DNA of 64,000 nucleotides from Protonemura montana (Eukaryota; Arthropoda; Insecta; Plecoptera; Nemouridae). The stretch lies in the NCBI GenBank assembly GCA_947568835.1, contig OX387604.1, forward strand, positions 11,995,076 through 12,059,075, given 5' to 3'. Positions 51,973 through 64,000 of the stretch are shown here, in pieces. The notes below the pieces were generated by a model. The model was not told the DNA's origin. It searched no databases and saw only the letters and a list, made by a program, of their open reading frames with translations. The translations under genes and the position numbers were made by a program. Within the stretch, counting starts at the first letter, position 1; every line of letters starts with the position of its first letter.

Positions 51973-53023
51973 AAACAGTTCTGACGGGTTTGGAAGATCA
52001 TTTTGAAACTTTTTTTGGACATCTCCGACAACGTTATGACCGGTCATATTTTATTTTAAAACGTAAGTGAATTAAAAATTCAGTTATTTTCTAGTGTCAG
52101 CTCAGCACGGGTTAGATCGCAAGATTCGTTGTTGTTACGTGTTAGTGTGGATTTAGTTTTTATTAAATTCGCGTCTTAAATCCAACCGCGCCACAACGAA
52201 CCACGTTTTATTGATCCAAATTTAACGTATTTCATGCTAGGGTCTGTAGAATTGTGACTCCTTGTTATATTACTTTATGATAATGACTGCTGTTATTTCT
52301 TAAATCTATCAGTACTATCGGCACGTTGCAATTGATTACGGACGATAATCTCTCAGTGCAGCTCAAAAGCCGAGTCATTGCTTAAAATTCAGTCCAAGGA
52401 GAGAGAATCATACAGAATATAACCTTCAAATGTATGCTTTATGGTATGCTGTGTATGCTGTCAAAGAATTAAGGTAAGACGAAACACTAGATATCTACAT
52501 TATGATCAAATGTGTAGTTGCTTCGATTTAATACGAAAATTGAGCACTTATTCTCTGGACTCGTCAAAAAGTATACCTACTGTCAGTATACCAATGTTGG
52601 TCCTACTTGCTACTCTGAATATTTCCCAACTTGTTATTTCTCACTCCCCCACTTGAGAATGGGAGCTAACCTAAACCTTGATGTGCCAGAAATAAAGCTT
52701 CTAACTCCTGGATATTCCGACTGTTTCCCAGCTAGAACCAAGACTTATTTCCAGACAAGCAGGCGCTTTAGTTGCAGGGTCCTTTATTAATTAGACCAAC
52801 AATTAAACTGAGTCTAGCGTCTGGAAAGTGTTTCCCAAATGTTATGCACATGCTCCACCCTTTCTGTAGCTGTAATAACTGTTCTAGGAATGGTAATAAT
52901 GAAAGAGCCTAGGTTGTGCATGGGAAAATAATCAATTTGGTCGGTTTTCATCGACCATTAACAAATTTCATTTATTTATCTCGATTTCAGGAAACCAGGA
53001 AACTGTATCTTCTCGTTTGGAAG
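51973..53023 (+). CDS. Possible exons of an unrecognised spliced gene
   Basis: Three stretches have both splice borders and matching phases. 51973-52062 codes TVLTGLEDHFETFFGHLRQR and on to FILK, ending at a strong GTAAGT. 52362-52473 codes a region including YNLQMYALWYAVYAVKELR, ending at GTAAGA. 52991-53023 is a 33-nt exon, KPGNCIFSFG, after a TTTATCTCGATTTCAG acceptor. Each is open only in the stated frame. I do not recognise the protein and no start is visible, so this may be coincidence. Confidence 0.25.
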
Positions 53024-56263: not shown

Positions 56264-58205
56264 GTACTGACATAAATCGAAAGATTTTATTTTATTGCAA
56301 AAATAACATTACTTGTAAGCTAAACTACTTACGATAGCAGGCCTGATTGATATAGATTTTTTTTTGGTTGTAATCAATCGGCATTTTTTTTACTGATATG
56401 CTTGATGTAATTTAGAAATGAACAGTGTTATGTAGCGACTGGTGAGTTAGCTAGACGTAGAGCATAGCTTTGCGACTGTGAGCTGGGTAAGGTGCATCCG
56501 GCTCGTGACTATTCAACCATGCCTGCCAATGCGAAAAGCAATCAATGTGTCAAGTTACCTACACTGTATTGACTCGCTTTTCTCCCCCGGTATGACCCCT
56601 TCACTTTCGTTGCAAGCGACAATGCGACAAAAAGTCATAACCAGTATTGCACATTTTCTTACTCGAATTCGATTTCTAAGGCGAATTGTTAGCACGTTCC
56701 AACCCACCGAAATTAAAATTACACTGCGGCAGAATCTATGCGGCAAATATCCCCTCTCAAAACTCGTAGATCGCACCGACAATTAAACTATCCTAAAACA
56801 TTCTTAGTATTGAATAATAAACGATGAGTACACACAGATCTGCAGTTCGGCTCTAATTTTCACCTACCTAACGCCTGGATCGCTGATATAATTATATATC
56901 ACATCTGCTTTACAAATCTGCACTAGGGGTTGCTATGAACTTTGTTGAAAATATTTCACCTGGCATTTGAAGTTCAAATGCTCGCCTACCTGTCCTAAAC
57001 ATGTGCAAGGCATTTTCGGCATTCTCCTAGCTTCAGAAGCGAACTCCCTTCTAAGCACCCAGCCTTGAGTCAGACCCTTGCCAGACAATAGAAGCAGACC
57101 AAAGCTTGACACACAGGGAATGCGATCGAATTTGAAGCTCTAGCACGAAAACTCTGTTCTATTTTCGGGTTGTTTTAATATATGATGAAGGTATGCAACT
57201 GACAAGTGGCACGTCAGTTGAATCGGTTATGATGTAATAGTCACATGACTTAAGTAAGCGTACATGATGACGTTCCATTACACCATGGTTTTAACAGAAA
57301 GCTGCCACTAATAGTAAAATAAAATAAGTATGTCAGCTGGGGAAGTAAATCGAACTTTGATTTTGTTAAAATGATATCATATTACAATTCAATATCTCTT
57401 TGGGATCAGGGTCTGACTAAGCAAGTCTGAGAGGGGTTTGAAGTGCATACTAATGGAGTGGGACTGACTCTCAATTTCGTTCAAACCTAATTAGTGCACT
57501 AGTTTTGAGTTACCATTTCAAGTGTACGCTAAAGCAAGATACTGTTATGAAAACAATACAAAAAAATGACATCTTCTCCCTTAAAGCCTGGATGAACACA
57601 TTTCACGTAGAGGAAAATGTAAGGCGCCGGCACGCAATTGAAATTGGCGTATGATAAATCCTTACGACAATCATGTAATTGTAGAGGGTTGAGATAAGCC
57701 CAGGGATTTTATAGCGCTCAAGATTCAGATACTTAATTTAATTCAGAGATTACTTGGAAATTGAAAACTAATATTGTGAAGAGGCTGTCAAGATAACATT
57801 TGAAATGGCATTACATTGTTTCTGATAACATCGAAAAAAGATAACTTTGTGATTATGAATGAAACCTTGCTTGATCTTGATTGGTCGGTCAAAGTGGCCG
57901 TTGTATGAGATGATTGGTTGTTGGTGGCAGTAGACTGCACCCTTCTTTGCCCCGTGGTATCGATCGCGAATATACGTGTTGGGTTGGGGTTATGGGGTGC
58001 AGCACTAGCCGTACATCTCACTACTAGCGTCTGTAGTCTATACCGTAGTTTAGGAGGCTGCGTTTCGTGCATGCTCTAGGCTATGGATCAAAATTCAAGT
58101 GAAAAGCAAGTAAACCAGTAGATTTTTATACTTTTCTACGCACTGGTAGAGAGGAGTTCATTTAGTGACAGCAAGTATTAAGAAATCTATTCGGAAAAAT
58201 CTAAA
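56264..58205. other. Unassigned stretch upstream of the MGGCAS exon
   Basis: No recognised gene. It ends in the probable promoter of the exon at 58206. The plus frame 56478-56786 and minus frame 57788-58072 show no domain. Confidence 0.45.
58127..58160 (+). promoter_or_regulatory. TATA-like box and initiator upstream of the MGGCAS exon
   Basis: TTTTTATAC at about 58123-58131 stands about 30 bases before TTCATTT at 58157, a spacing typical of arthropod TATA and initiator pairs. The ATG follows 46 bases later. Confidence 0.35.
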
Positions 58206-58279
58206 ATGGGAGGTTGTGCATCCAAAGAAAGGAAGGTTGCCGCGAAAGGAGCTGACGAGGGTGGCGACTCGAAACAAAG
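58206..58279 (+). CDS. Candidate alternative first exon with acylation signal, in phase with arginine kinase
   Basis: ATG in a good context (AAAATGG) opens MGGCASKERKVAAKGADEGG and four more residues, then a donor (AAAG then GTATTC) in phase 2. Gly2 with Ser6 fits the N-myristoylation rule and Cys4 fits palmitoylation. The next downstream acceptor of the arginine kinase gene at 61049 also takes phase 2, giving S-S-E-M before [10 protein letters not shown] with no stop. It would place arginine kinase on membranes. It could equally be the first exon of another gene; splicing is inferred only from phase. Confidence 0.4.
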
Positions 58280-61048
58280 GTATTCATTCAGCCTCTACTC
58301 TAAAACAAATTCAGATACCCAAAAATGCTCTTCTCTGGTGTCATATGGAGAATGGCTTTTATTTCTTGTTTTTGTGAATGCATTTGATCAGGTCTCACGA
58401 TCGGCCTATGATTTTACGCCGGTTTATTTTGACAAGAGCATGAATGGTCGTTTTGGTTCTCGTGCATAAATTACAAGTGATTTTAGTTTGCGCAAAAGTG
58501 AATTCTAATGCACAATTAATATTCGTGTCATGTTTTGATAGTACTGTAAATGATTAATGAAACTCGTGTAATTCAGAGCTGGACTCAGTCCCGGGGTAAT
58601 ACACCCACTGGTAGGGGCCCGCGTTGCAAAATGTTACCCATCCAGGCACCAGCCACGATCTCGCTGCCTCAATGACCGCTATTTAGCTAATATTTCTCGA
58701 ATTTTTCAACGTGCTAATGGCTCGTGACATCAGTTATGCACTACTGTTCTTTTTACTCGGCCGTGATGCTCTTTCTCAATCGAGTTATAAGATTACCGGT
58801 ACGTTTTGAAGAAAGAGATTATTTTTTTTTTTATGCCGGCCCCATGACAGTAAATATATTCATACTTTTGGCTTAACATACCTGATTTTCGAGCAAAGAC
58901 TAAAGATCTTTTACATCTGATAAAGATTAATGTGCATCTGGTCATTACAATGATAGTTACTCAGTACACTGAACATGCGATGCACATGCTATTAGCTACA
59001 TTTTGCTCCCTACATAGAACTAAGCACATTTCAATTGGCTTATCCTCGACCAAGCCTAATCTATCATGCCAACAAAATTGCTCACGATAAATCAAAATGA
59101 TTGAACATCATCTCTGAAAATGTCTCTACCTAGAGGTCAATGAATCAAATCGTCTAATGACGAGGGCAGATTTCGGAGAAAACAATTTCGTTGTACATGT
59201 TCGTTCGACATACATTTTCACGTAAGACAATAAGTTCCCCGCTTGATACAGAAACTTCCAAGAAATGAACGAATTACGAAAGTAACAATATTATATACTG
59301 ATTGGTATTGTGCTTCGCTGTCCAGATCGGAATTGGAATGATCGATTTTGGTCTAAATCCGGCTTCATTTATATATGTGTTTTTTTTTCGTTTCTTATTC
59401 TCAAAGTAATATGATACTAAATCCATACACACAATACCATTTATTACCTTTAACCACGTGTTACATGTGATTGTGAAAAGCATTTGACGACTCGCTTTTT
59501 TGGAACCCGTCCAGGATATCAAAGGGGACTGGTTCCTTGGCCAGAATTATTGCCAATAGCCCCCAAAGAATTTATTACGATTGATACAATGTAAAATGAT
59601 TGGTTAAGTGTTCGAAACAGAGTCGGGGATTCTCTTGGTACATTGATATCGCCTAATTTGCACCTGACAGTCATGCTACTGCAATTGTAATAAATGGAGT
59701 GCAACCAGCAGATTTTTCGGTCTGTGTGTGAGTCAATGCGTTTAAAGTCATCGGTACCATCTATTCAAATTTGGCTTCCAAATTGCATTTTGAAGTTAGA
59801 GCCAACTTTAAAATTTGTATTTCAAAGAGCCGGGAAGTTTTAAGTATCGAATTAAAAATGCATTTAGTATTGCATACATGATTTATAATCTATATAAAGA
59901 TGACTCTTTGCAGCACTTCAGATAAGCAAGCTGAGATTATGATAGCTTCATATCTTGTTGCCACATGCACATTTTTTGTGCAAGTCACTCCTACGCTTTT
60001 CAAAGATTTCGAAAACCATCAATTACATAGAAACACGTACAAAATCAAGTAAATCTGATCATCAATCTAAATTATGTAAGACCACATAATTACAGTCTAG
60101 TGAACATACATCTGCATCTACATACATACATTTAGTGAGAGAACATACCACATCAAAACCCTCGGTATTAGCTCTTATAGCTAAACTGGCTTAAAGGGCT
60201 TTCAAATCACACATTCTCTCACTGAATGGACTGTATGAAACTTTAAAAAGTCCCAAGATTAAATCTTGGTTTGTCCAAAGTATCTGTATTGGGTTACGTA
60301 ATTGTTAATACTCTGTACCGTATCCAATATGAATTATATACAGGATTTATCAACACCCAGCTCTCTCGTCTCATAGAGACCCATGGATTATATTTTGAGT
60401 GGTTAGATGGCTATTTAGTTATTTAAAACATTTGGTTTTCCTGAGTTATTCTTTGTCACGGGTATTCTTTTGTTTTCACTCAGAGCTAATTAGATCAGCT
60501 TCTTTGTGATGATAGTAAAATAAGAGTCTTGTTTCTATGTGAAGGTGCCAATTAATTGCAAGCAGGCTTAAAACGGGACGATTTTTATTTCAGGGCTGTG
60601 TAATGGCTTTTTGGGAGGTCGCTTATCCTCGTTTGTCAGGTGTATGTCATCTAATAAAGAGTCATTCTCGAGCCTGCTCACTTTCGTCATGGCTGTCGCA
60701 AAGAAGTAGACCGTAATACTGACGAAATTATCCAAATATATAATAAATCTTAAGAATTTTGAAGTTATAATCTTTTTTTACCCATAATTTGAGTTTGTGC
60801 ACAATACTTTCCAACCCATCGTAGTAGTTTAATCCCTCCTGATTATCTAGCGTAGAACATACGATTAGGTTCTTTTTGCTTGAAGGCTGCAACCATTTTA
60901 TTCCATAGAACCAGTCCATGACTTGCGTCGATCCAAAATAGAAGAGTGAATTAAGAATTGTATCAAATTGATAATGAAAATGCAAACAATATATAATTAT
61001 ATTGAAATGCACTCGTAGACTAATTGTGTGTATTTCATTTGTTTGCAG
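58280..61048 (+). other. Probable intron between the MGGCAS exon and arginine kinase
   Basis: About 2.8 kb with no recognised exon. If the MGGCAS exon does not join arginine kinase, this stretch should instead hold the standard arginine kinase promoter and 5' untranslated exon. Minus frames at 59274-59522 and 59519-59704 are without known domains. Confidence 0.45.
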
Positions 61049-61055
61049 CTCAGAA

Positions 61056-64000
61056 ATGGTTGATGCCGCAGTTTTGGAGAAGCTCGAGGCTGGGTTCAAG
61101 AAGCTTGAAGCCTCTGACAGCAAGTCCCTGCTGAAGAAGTACCTCACCCGTGAGGTATTCGATGCCCTCAAGACCAAGAAGACTCCTTCTTTCGGGTCTA
61201 CCCTGCTCGATGTCATCCAGTCTGGTAAGTCTCGTAAATACTCTGTTACCAGCATCCTAGACTGAAGAGCCACATTTTCACATTCAGTTTTAATTGTACC
61301 TATTAGTACCATCTTGCATTTGGCACCTTTCAATGCACGAGGAACGATTTAGAGTCTTGACTTTGAGTACACGGGCAAACTAACCATATTTTAGCGGCTC
61401 ATTGCTGTTTAATGACGCACATACTGCCAGACATTTACTGAAATAATGTACTTGTAGCTAAGCACTAGACTAATTGTAAACACCAACAATGTTTAGCACC
61501 GTGGAAAGATGTCGTTTGCCACGCTCATTAAGACAGTGCAATTTTTATGCGTGTTACTCAACACCGAAGACAGTCAACATTGTGTGTACTTGTACTATAT
61601 CTACTATACTACTATTACGTGGACTTGGCACCGTGACATACGCTGCATAATGTTAAATCTTGCTCAATTCTCAGGTGCAATAAAAATAAAACAGCAGACC
61701 ATTTAATTAGTCACCTTCAATATACGTATATACAGTGTGTTAGACTCATTAGCGCTTCACACAATTGATGTAACGTCGATACCTATTCGTTTCGTGTCTT
61801 TTTTTGTACAATTGTAATAGCAAATCTGTGTAACGAATCATTTCCCAAACTCGTGTAGTTGTTCGGTACAAGTTCGATAGTTGCATGTTAGGTTCCGTCT
61901 CGTCTCGCCGCGCCGGTGGCGGCTTGGGTGGCGGTCTTTTTGGGGCGCCTATTGATCGACGTTGGTTGACGACAACGCCTATGCTGCTCGCTCCTACCGT
62001 AAAGACCGTCGAGTTAGCCTAGGATTCGATGCCTATGTTTTAGTTCCTTTTATCGTAATAGAAGGAATTGTTAAATTGATTCTACGTCGAGAGATTGGTT
62101 TCTAAAATTTTACTTCATATAATTAATGCCAAGTTAGTGAGCAAAACATAATTTCATTAAAAATATATATAGATTCAAGGAAGTCGGTTTTACTCTTGTA
62201 GATCGATGGGTAATACTTCTTTGCACGACATCGGACTTTTTGTGCCTCAAAGTGGCGCATTAAAAATAAATTTATCGATCAAACATTAACTTGAAATTGG
62301 TCTCTTTAGGGCTTTTACAAAAGATAATGCTGAAAATATGACGCTATATTTCTCGTATACATTTGTCAAGCTGAATTTGTACATATTAATGGCGTCTTAG
62401 CACACTGTGTCTGAGAAAGTGTCCCCACGACGAAGTTTGGCCTAACTGTTTTATTTACACGTAGACTTTAAAGCTTATTTTCACTAGAGTGGAATCCAAC
62501 CTGGACGGTAGTCACCAAGTGCTCTTTACGTACGATCACAAGTAGGAAACCGATGTCCTCGATGGCTTTTACATGGCCTTTAAAACAGTTCGAATTGTAC
62601 TGTGACGAAAACACTTACACTTTTAACAACAACTTCACGTGGTAAAGTAGGTAATCGCGCCTATCAACGGTTCCTGCTCAAAATAACGAAGATAGTGTTT
62701 GTGACACTTTTGACAGAACAGATTAAATTTAAATTACTAACTTGCTACTGGAAATATAATTCAGATAACGTTGGTTGGTATGAATTAATCATGCCATTTC
62801 GAACCAAGTAAAACTGCGCGTTTTTTTTCGTATTTAATTCTCGAAAAAGTTTGAGAATTGAAGTTGTAAAACAAAACGGTATTTGCGACACTAAATGATT
62901 TGGTTACTTGACATGTGACATCCGATTCCTCGAAGGGCGTTTAATTCATGATTACCAGACTGTAACCCGCAGAAAAATACTGTTTCTCTTTGCCACCTCC
63001 CAATCTGCCATGAGCAAAGCCCCTCGGTACTGCCGTCGGCATGATCATGGATGGACCCATGTCCGCGTGACGCTCCATGGAGCGATAGAAAAATAGATAT
63101 GATAATAATATCCTGTGCTAGACGACTCTCATTATAGCCTCCATCCAACAATTCCATGCAGCAGGAAGCCAGCTGCAAGCCAGCAGTGCGGGGCTCAATT
63201 ACGACAAATGTGTCTTCTCTCTATTAGTTCAATTAGTTTTTTATGAGGGCCTAAGAAAATTATTCCGTTCGGCACAAAGTTTCTGATGGAACATTTAGTC
63301 AATGACAAAACGAATGAATTAACTCTGAAACTGCCGCTCTACAACTGTGATTTATTTATTTAAAATTATTGTTTAGCTACAAAAAAAAACACCCTTTTCG
63401 TACTTTCGAACTGGAGAATTCAACGAGTTCAGGCCAAGAAACAGAGTCCAAGATACATGTCTTAGCAGGAGTATCCTCTATAATCGCTAATAACTAAACC
63501 TTTGCATTTTCTGTCCAGGTCTTGAGAACCACGACTCTGGAGTAGGCATCTACGCCCCTGACGCGGAGGCCTACACCACATTTGCTGACCTCTTCGACCC
63601 CATCATCGAGGACTACCATGGTGGATTCAAGAAGACCGACAAGCACCCCCCAAAGAACTGGGGAGATGTCGATACTCTGGCCAACTTGGACCCCACCGTA
63701 AGCAAACACGAGCTCTGACGCGAAAAAGTTGTTTACTTGTAATTTGATTGTTATTATAAAATGCGGAATTAATTATCTTCTACAGGGTGACTACATCATC
63801 TCGACCCGTGTCCGTTGCGGACGCTCCATGGAAGGATACCCGTTCAACCCTTGCTTGACCGAGGCTCAGTACAAGGAGATGGAACAGAAGGTGTCCACCA
63901 CCCTGTCCGGACTCGAGGGTGAACTCAAGGGACAGTTCTACCCCCTGACTGGTATGGGCAAGGAGGTGCAGCAGCAGCTGATCGATGATCACTTCCTTTT
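61056..64000 (+). CDS. Argk: Arginine kinase, N-terminal half, cut by the window end
   Basis: Phosphagen kinase that moves phosphate between ATP and arginine in invertebrate muscle and nerve. Coding exons 61056-61224, 63519-63697 and 63786-64000 onward join in phase to 187 residues of a usual 355 or so. The start [18 protein letters not shown] is the arthropod N-terminus. [12 protein letters not shown] and [16 protein letters not shown] mark the substrate-binding N-domain, [10 protein letters not shown] the first nucleotide-binding arginines, and [16 protein letters not shown] follows. The sequence ends in DDHFLF. An acceptor at 61048 leaves CTCAGAA before the ATG, which is open in frame with an upstream exon. 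Codon use is richer in C and G than surrounding DNA, as expected of a highly expressed gene. Confidence 0.97.
61225..63518 (+). other. Intron 1 of arginine kinase
   Basis: A 2.3-kb intron with GTAAGT and TTTTCTGTCCAG borders. Mostly AT-rich; a compact CpG-rich patch at about 61886-62023 stands out and is listed separately. No recognised exon. Confidence 0.75.
61886..62023 (+). other. CpG-rich patch with a 45-codon open frame in arginine kinase intron 1
   Basis: The patch contains many CG dinucleotides in otherwise AT-rich intron. The frame from ATG at 61886 reads [20 protein letters not shown] and continues to a stop near 62021. No family is recognised. It may be an internal promoter or an unmethylated island, or a small upstream frame of an alternative transcript. 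Confidence 0.25.

Follow-up and report, generated by a model that had tools for sequence, protein, structure and literature searches.

An arginine kinase gene of the stonefly Protonemura montana with a putative mitochondrial first exon and a candidate first exon for a membrane-anchored isoform

The arginine kinase gene at the end of the DNA analysed here, a 64,000-nucleotide stretch of the Protonemura montana genome (hereafter, the window), probably encodes a membrane-anchored isoform by way of a short upstream exon whose peptide starts MGGCASK (the MGGC exon), which is, taken as a whole, the best explanation of our observations. The same gene very likely carries a conserved, putative mitochondrial first exon at 52.4 kb and, judging by its sequence, very likely encodes a mitochondrial form of the enzyme as well. 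The MGGC exon would probably be a further alternative first exon spliced onto the same arginine kinase acceptor. The features of the gene, in window numbering, are as follows:

52430..52473, + strand: alternative coding first exon, MYALWYAVYAVKEL followed by AG, phase 2; putative counterpart of the Drosophila ArgK1 RA/RE first exon, MFALWYLTFAVDEIRK
58206..58279, + strand: candidate alternative coding first exon, MGGCASKERKVAAKGADEGGDSKQ followed by AG, phase 2, proposed from its sequence, rarity, and composition step
58280..61048, + strand: predicted intron from the MGGC exon to the first common exon, with a weak donor (GTATTC) and a good acceptor (tttgtttgcag)
61049..61224, + strand: first common arginine kinase exon, with a leader, CTCAGAA (7 bases), ahead of the canonical ATG at 61056
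63519..63697, + strand: second common arginine kinase exon
63786..64000, + strand: third common arginine kinase exon, running on to 64025 beyond the window
to about 65350, + strand: further arginine kinase exons, beyond the window

The spliced 383-residue protein, assembled by hand, contains PF02807 at residues 47-114 (111.9 bits) and PF00217 at residues 174-382 (258.5 bits), both over the cut-off. The two ATP:guanido phosphotransferase domains are thus intact and in order, as in an arginine kinase of the phosphagen kinase family. When the first 215 residues were searched against the PDB, arginine kinases ranked first and 44 distinct sequences passed; since no best-scoring stretch started before residue 26, the MGGC tail is without a solved relative there.

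A scan for in-frame starts upstream of the arginine kinase acceptor yielded the exon at 52430-52473. This exon joins the 61049 acceptor in frame, with the same phase and AG/GT junction as the MGGC exon, and its donor (AAG/GTAAGA) is strong, with a score of 10.33 that is reached by 0.22% of GTs. Its peptide is identical to that of the Drosophila ArgK1 first exon at 8 of the first 14 residues, and the non-identical residues include Phe/Tyr and Ile/Leu exchanges. The pair had a BLOSUM62 score of 50, whereas the runner-up among 330,476 14-mers (a tally in which overlapping loci were counted more than once) scored 30, and matches as good as this one are expected only 2.5e-6 times per 10 kb. Likewise, a degenerate pattern made from the window and fly exon sequences produced a single match genome-wide, and its control produced none. 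According to a 2025 report, seven mRNA transcripts are annotated for Drosophila ArgK1 (CG4929), RA and RE have a common first exon coding for MFALWYLTFAVDEIRK, and this exon alone suffices to target a fluorescent protein to mitochondria (PMC13215054). Since MYALWYAVYAVKEL matches a mitochondrial exon of the fly, joining coding first exons to the 61049 acceptor is very likely a conserved arrangement. As in Drosophila ArgK1, the window gene has an alternative coding first exon ahead of the arginine kinase core; however, the catalytic core is described as one last exon in the fly and is split into several exons here, and the RA isoform of the fly includes a second N-terminal exon (PMC13215054). 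Persistence of the match despite the multi-exon core indicates that the mitochondrial first exon of Drosophila is no fly oddity. The preliminary description had proposed that alternative promoters produce a soluble and a membrane-bound enzyme. This second upstream exon lends independent support to alternative first exons that splice to the 61049 acceptor, and the picture is wider than a soluble versus a membrane-bound form. The 52.4 kb exon supports an alternative-first-exon architecture, though not the MGGC exon itself.

The MGGC exon begins with an ATG at 58206 in the context aaaATGG and comprises 24 codons plus AG, followed by the donor AAG/GTATTC (GT at 58280-58281; +4 to +6, TTC). The acceptor, tttgtttgcag/CTCAGAA, ends at 61048, and the resulting junction reads AG+C TCA GAA ATG, i.e., S-S-E-M, in frame. 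Because stop codons never end in C, this junction cannot create a stop. The exon at 58206, its phase-2 end at 58279, and its in-frame, stop-free join to 61049 had been described previously, and our analysis reproduced these coordinates and the phase. We infer that either upstream exon is transcribed and that its splicing follows this scheme. The open reading frame of the MGGC exon opens at 58182, where an upstream stop closes the frame, and stays open to 58466; no ATG occurs in the 120 bases preceding the ATG at 58206. The exon DNA is present in one copy in the 258,480,905-base, 34-contig genome, and a peptide search with E up to 10 likewise found one genomic copy of MGGCASKERKVAAKGADEGGDSKQ. 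Since neither search found a second copy, a repeat or transposon origin was rejected. Promoter motifs 5' of the exon lent no support, as none stood out: TATA was not found on the + strand between 57500 and 58280, and the initiator TCAKTY matched once (at 58158) in the 781 bases of that region versus six times in the 2,769-base intron.

To count acylation signals, we coded a PROSITE-type N-myristoylation rule. MGGCASK conforms to this rule, having Gly2, a permitted residue 3, a Ser/Thr/small residue at position 6, and no Pro at position 7. A Gly2 combined with Ser6-Lys7 makes a textbook substrate of N-myristoyltransferase. Cys4 is presumably a palmitoylation site, and we take K7, R9, K10, and K14 to be a basic patch. 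In all, the tail has four lysines (positions 7, 10, 14, and 23) and one arginine (position 9).

The main rival to the MGGC isoform is that its frame is a chance open reading frame in the intron after the 52.4 kb exon, and that the gene makes cytosolic and mitochondrial forms only; we consider this unlikely, though it is the alternative to be taken most seriously. A frame and a donor are cheap: within 10 kb upstream of the 61049 acceptor, 11 ATG starts on 9 donors, the MGGC exon included, make in-frame joins to it. The preliminary description's caution that a phase match alone has a one-in-three chance was right but too mild, and we rejected the phase match as evidence. The full signal, together with a donor and close to an arginine kinase gene, is rare. 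A null sample, consisting of both strands of 20 regions (10 kb each) drawn from three contigs of this genome, contained 149 MG-starting open reading frames of at least 16 codons. Of these, 20 satisfied the general myristoylation rule and seven had a permitted residue 3 with Ser/Thr6, one of these seven also having a Cys at positions 3-6. No frame in the null regions combined Ser/Thr6 and Cys with a phase-2 donor as good as that of the MGGC exon, and with the Cys requirement dropped, one of the seven Ser/Thr6 frames had such a donor. Within the window, 9 of 48 MG frames had Ser/Thr6 and three of the nine had a comparable donor, while Cys was present in the MGGC candidate only. Order-4 Markov simulation of 326 Mb gave 149 cases of Ser/Thr6 with Cys at positions 3-5 and a donor, and 14 cases of the Ser6-Lys/Arg7 form of the Cys and donor signal; the expectations for 10 kb of a single strand are 0.0046 and 0.00043, respectively. 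Scaled to both strands of the window, which allows for the after-the-fact choice of this exon, ~0.006 strict and ~0.06 loose signals are expected by chance. The earlier reading of Gly2 plus Ser6 as a myristoylation signal fits the peptide.

Other observations are more favorable to a chance frame. The DNA pattern ATGGGNGGNTGYNNNWSNAAR had 6 matches genome-wide versus 3 for its reversed control, which is not clearly above the control; four of the six, including the MGGC candidate, code for MGGCxSK. No relative of the MGGC exon was found, and of four stretches of viral contigs that matched a pattern, none was confirmed as a source of relatives. The donor is weak, scoring 4.43 compared to 10.86, 4.83, 9.05, and 6.45 for four other scored donors of the same gene, on a scoring table untrained on the present genome; 9.9% of GTs in the 20 null regions score at least as high.

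Against a chance frame stands a step in base composition that starts at the ATG at 58206 and stops at the donor. The G+C fraction is 0.54 in the MGGC exon, 0.35 in the 72 bases before it, and 0.37 in the 74 bases after it, and the corresponding purine fractions are 0.70, 0.58, and 0.46. Among 19,860 null 74-mers, 9.6% reached the G+C value of the exon, 0.94% its purine value, and 0.15% both. The MGGC peptide is also hydrophilic: of 3,176 null ATG frames, 13 were as poor in hydrophobic residues, 5 reached its codon score, and 2 did both. The codon model was poor, having been trained on 4,517 codons from 9 open reading frames, four or more of them apparently transposon-like or repetitive, and it scored true arginine kinase stretches at 0.08 and -0.15 versus 0.27 for the MGGC candidate. 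Codon bias was therefore rejected as coding evidence and kept as a measure of composition only.

It is improbable, to a clearly greater degree than a chance frame, that the MGGC exon is spliced to arginine kinase chiefly as a 5' leader, with initiation mostly at the canonical ATG or with a tail that stays unacylated in vivo. The canonical ATG at 61056 does have a good context (GAAATGG); nevertheless, the upstream ATG is in frame with it and in a strong context of its own, and the peptide fits the myristoylation rule, with Ser6-Lys7. Two further features were found beyond the window, downstream of the arginine kinase gene (window numbering):

about 68547-70390, + strand: EF-hand gene, the next + strand gene found after arginine kinase, matching Pfam EF-hand models; presumably calaxin/EFCAB1-like
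about 71.1-74.6 kb, - strand: animal haem peroxidase exons, with PF03098 in both of the two pieces scanned

The EF-hand gene has a candidate first exon, which we infer from frame only: it opens with an ATG at 68547, its donor, scoring 5.88, lies at 68636, and it ends ...KKTTHFS-AG ahead of a phase-2 first intron. Least probable of all, and by our estimate very improbable, is that a genuine MGGC exon forms part of a different transcript, either as an unspliced 87-codon small open reading frame (58206-58466), for which the frame is indeed open but the composition reverts directly past the donor, or as the first exon of the EF-hand gene, whose exon at 69486 does accept phase 2 (the acceptor leaves G before CGA GAA ATC, in frame) but whose own fitting first exon makes such a join unlikely, as does the need to skip the whole arginine kinase gene.

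Two other phosphagen kinase loci were found in the genome, on contigs C12 and C14:

C12:8455009-8458975, + strand: multi-exon arginine kinase gene, N-terminus MADRKQCTTCKKAVNKTD
C14:1346220-1347515, - strand: intronless, divergent arginine kinase open reading frame, with both Pfam domains over the cut-off

An MGGC-type start is absent from both paralogues, and no short MG exons with the signal were found in the 6.5 kb (C12) or 4.5 kb (C14) upstream. The idea that the paralogues carry the same tag was rejected, as the C12 protein starts MADRKQCTTCKK and the C14 protein is divergent. The C12 N-terminus, MADRKQCTTCKKAVNKTD, has a Cys-x-x-Cys stretch ahead of the conserved core. The C14 open reading frame has ~426 residues and an acidic insert, and a tandem repeat lies near it, at about C14:1349013-1349800 (- strand), with several frames open and units like QLQSISGKYICSTTEHQWEVYMFNYRASVGSIYV.

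In several other organisms, phosphagen kinases of different destinations are encoded by separate genes, as are the cytosolic and mitochondrial creatine kinases of vertebrates and the cytosolic, glycosomal, and flagellar arginine kinases of Trypanosoma brucei. The sperm flagellar creatine kinase of sea urchins is myristoylated and consists of three fused kinase domains; its substrate is creatine, whereas that of the window enzyme is arginine. This sea urchin enzyme is described as a phosphagen kinase acting along the flagellum (PMC4517888, PMC9934393). The flagellar arginine kinase of T. brucei (AK3; TbAK1 in PMC3679164) is reported to have an N-terminal tail that is required, and suffices, for targeting to the flagellum (PMC4517888, PMC3679164), with Gly2, small residues (G/S/A) at positions 4-6, and five lysines; its authors liken the tail to those of acylated calflagins and propose that the kinase is acylated (PMC4517888, PMC3679164). 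Like AK3, the proposed isoform would bear a short, lysine-containing N-terminal tail with Gly2 on an arginine kinase, but AK3 is the product of a separate gene while the MGGC exon is a candidate alternative exon. The likeness of the tails is only partial because positions 4-6 of the MGGC tail are C-A-S (two of three being small G/S/A residues) and because it has four lysines and one arginine instead of five lysines. We regard this parallel, the closest published one that we found, as a likeness of design, and claim no homology. For insects, the Drosophila RDGC phosphatase is described as having isoforms S, M, and L, in which alternative N-termini distinguish fatty-acylated, membrane-bound from soluble forms (PMC6161916). 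As proposed here for arginine kinase, a single insect gene thereby provides soluble and acylated isoforms, although RDGC is a phosphatase and belongs to a different protein family. With regard to sperm, two arginine kinases are reported to be abundant in Culex sperm, and an arginine kinase isoform of horseshoe crab sperm is cited as occurring in the midpiece and flagellum (PMC9934393).

On our model, the locus would be a canonical insect-type arginine kinase gene in which several alternative first exons share the single acceptor at 61048/61049. Since this acceptor leaves CTCAGAA before the ATG, any phase-2 first exon would add an N-terminal tag followed by the linker S-S-E, and the 7-base leader would thus double as coding sequence. 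A putative non-coding first exon would yield the plain cytosolic enzyme, and the 52.4 kb exon, like its Drosophila counterpart, would yield a mitochondrial form. The MGGC exon would most likely be a first exon with its own promoter, inside the intron following the mitochondrial exon. From the resulting form starting MGGCASK, the Met would be removed, Gly2 would be N-myristoylated, and Cys4 would probably be palmitoylated, while the basic stretch K7-R9-K10-K14 may aid binding to the acidic inner leaflet. Through its 27-residue tail, a complete arginine kinase would be tethered to the plasma or flagellar membrane and could regenerate ATP there, beside membrane ATPases or dynein. Possible sites of this form are sperm flagella and photoreceptor or neuronal membranes.

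Already known are alternative exons that target arginine kinase in Drosophila and, in trypanosomes, phosphagen kinases with acylation-like tails. In the text of PMC13215054, "MGGC" has no occurrences and "myristoyl" is used only of a tdTomato marker. Searches of open-licence PubMed Central papers found none with the sequence MGGCASK and none describing an insect arginine kinase with a first exon of the myristoylation type; predicted database isoforms may well include one. As recently as 2020, the very existence of true mitochondrial arginine kinases was still being called controversial (PMC7603314). With somewhat less confidence than we place in the membrane-anchored isoform itself, we favor the view that this one gene encodes a whole phosphagen circuit, i.e., a mitochondrial source, a cytosolic form that is soluble, and a sink at the plasma or sperm-flagellar membrane that is both myristoylated and palmitoylated, by switching between first exons spliced to a single acceptor. 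Should both the MGGC exon and the 52.4 kb exon be in use, one gene would supply the source, the pool, and the sink of a phosphoarginine shuttle, and each end of that shuttle would be separately removable by deleting one small exon.
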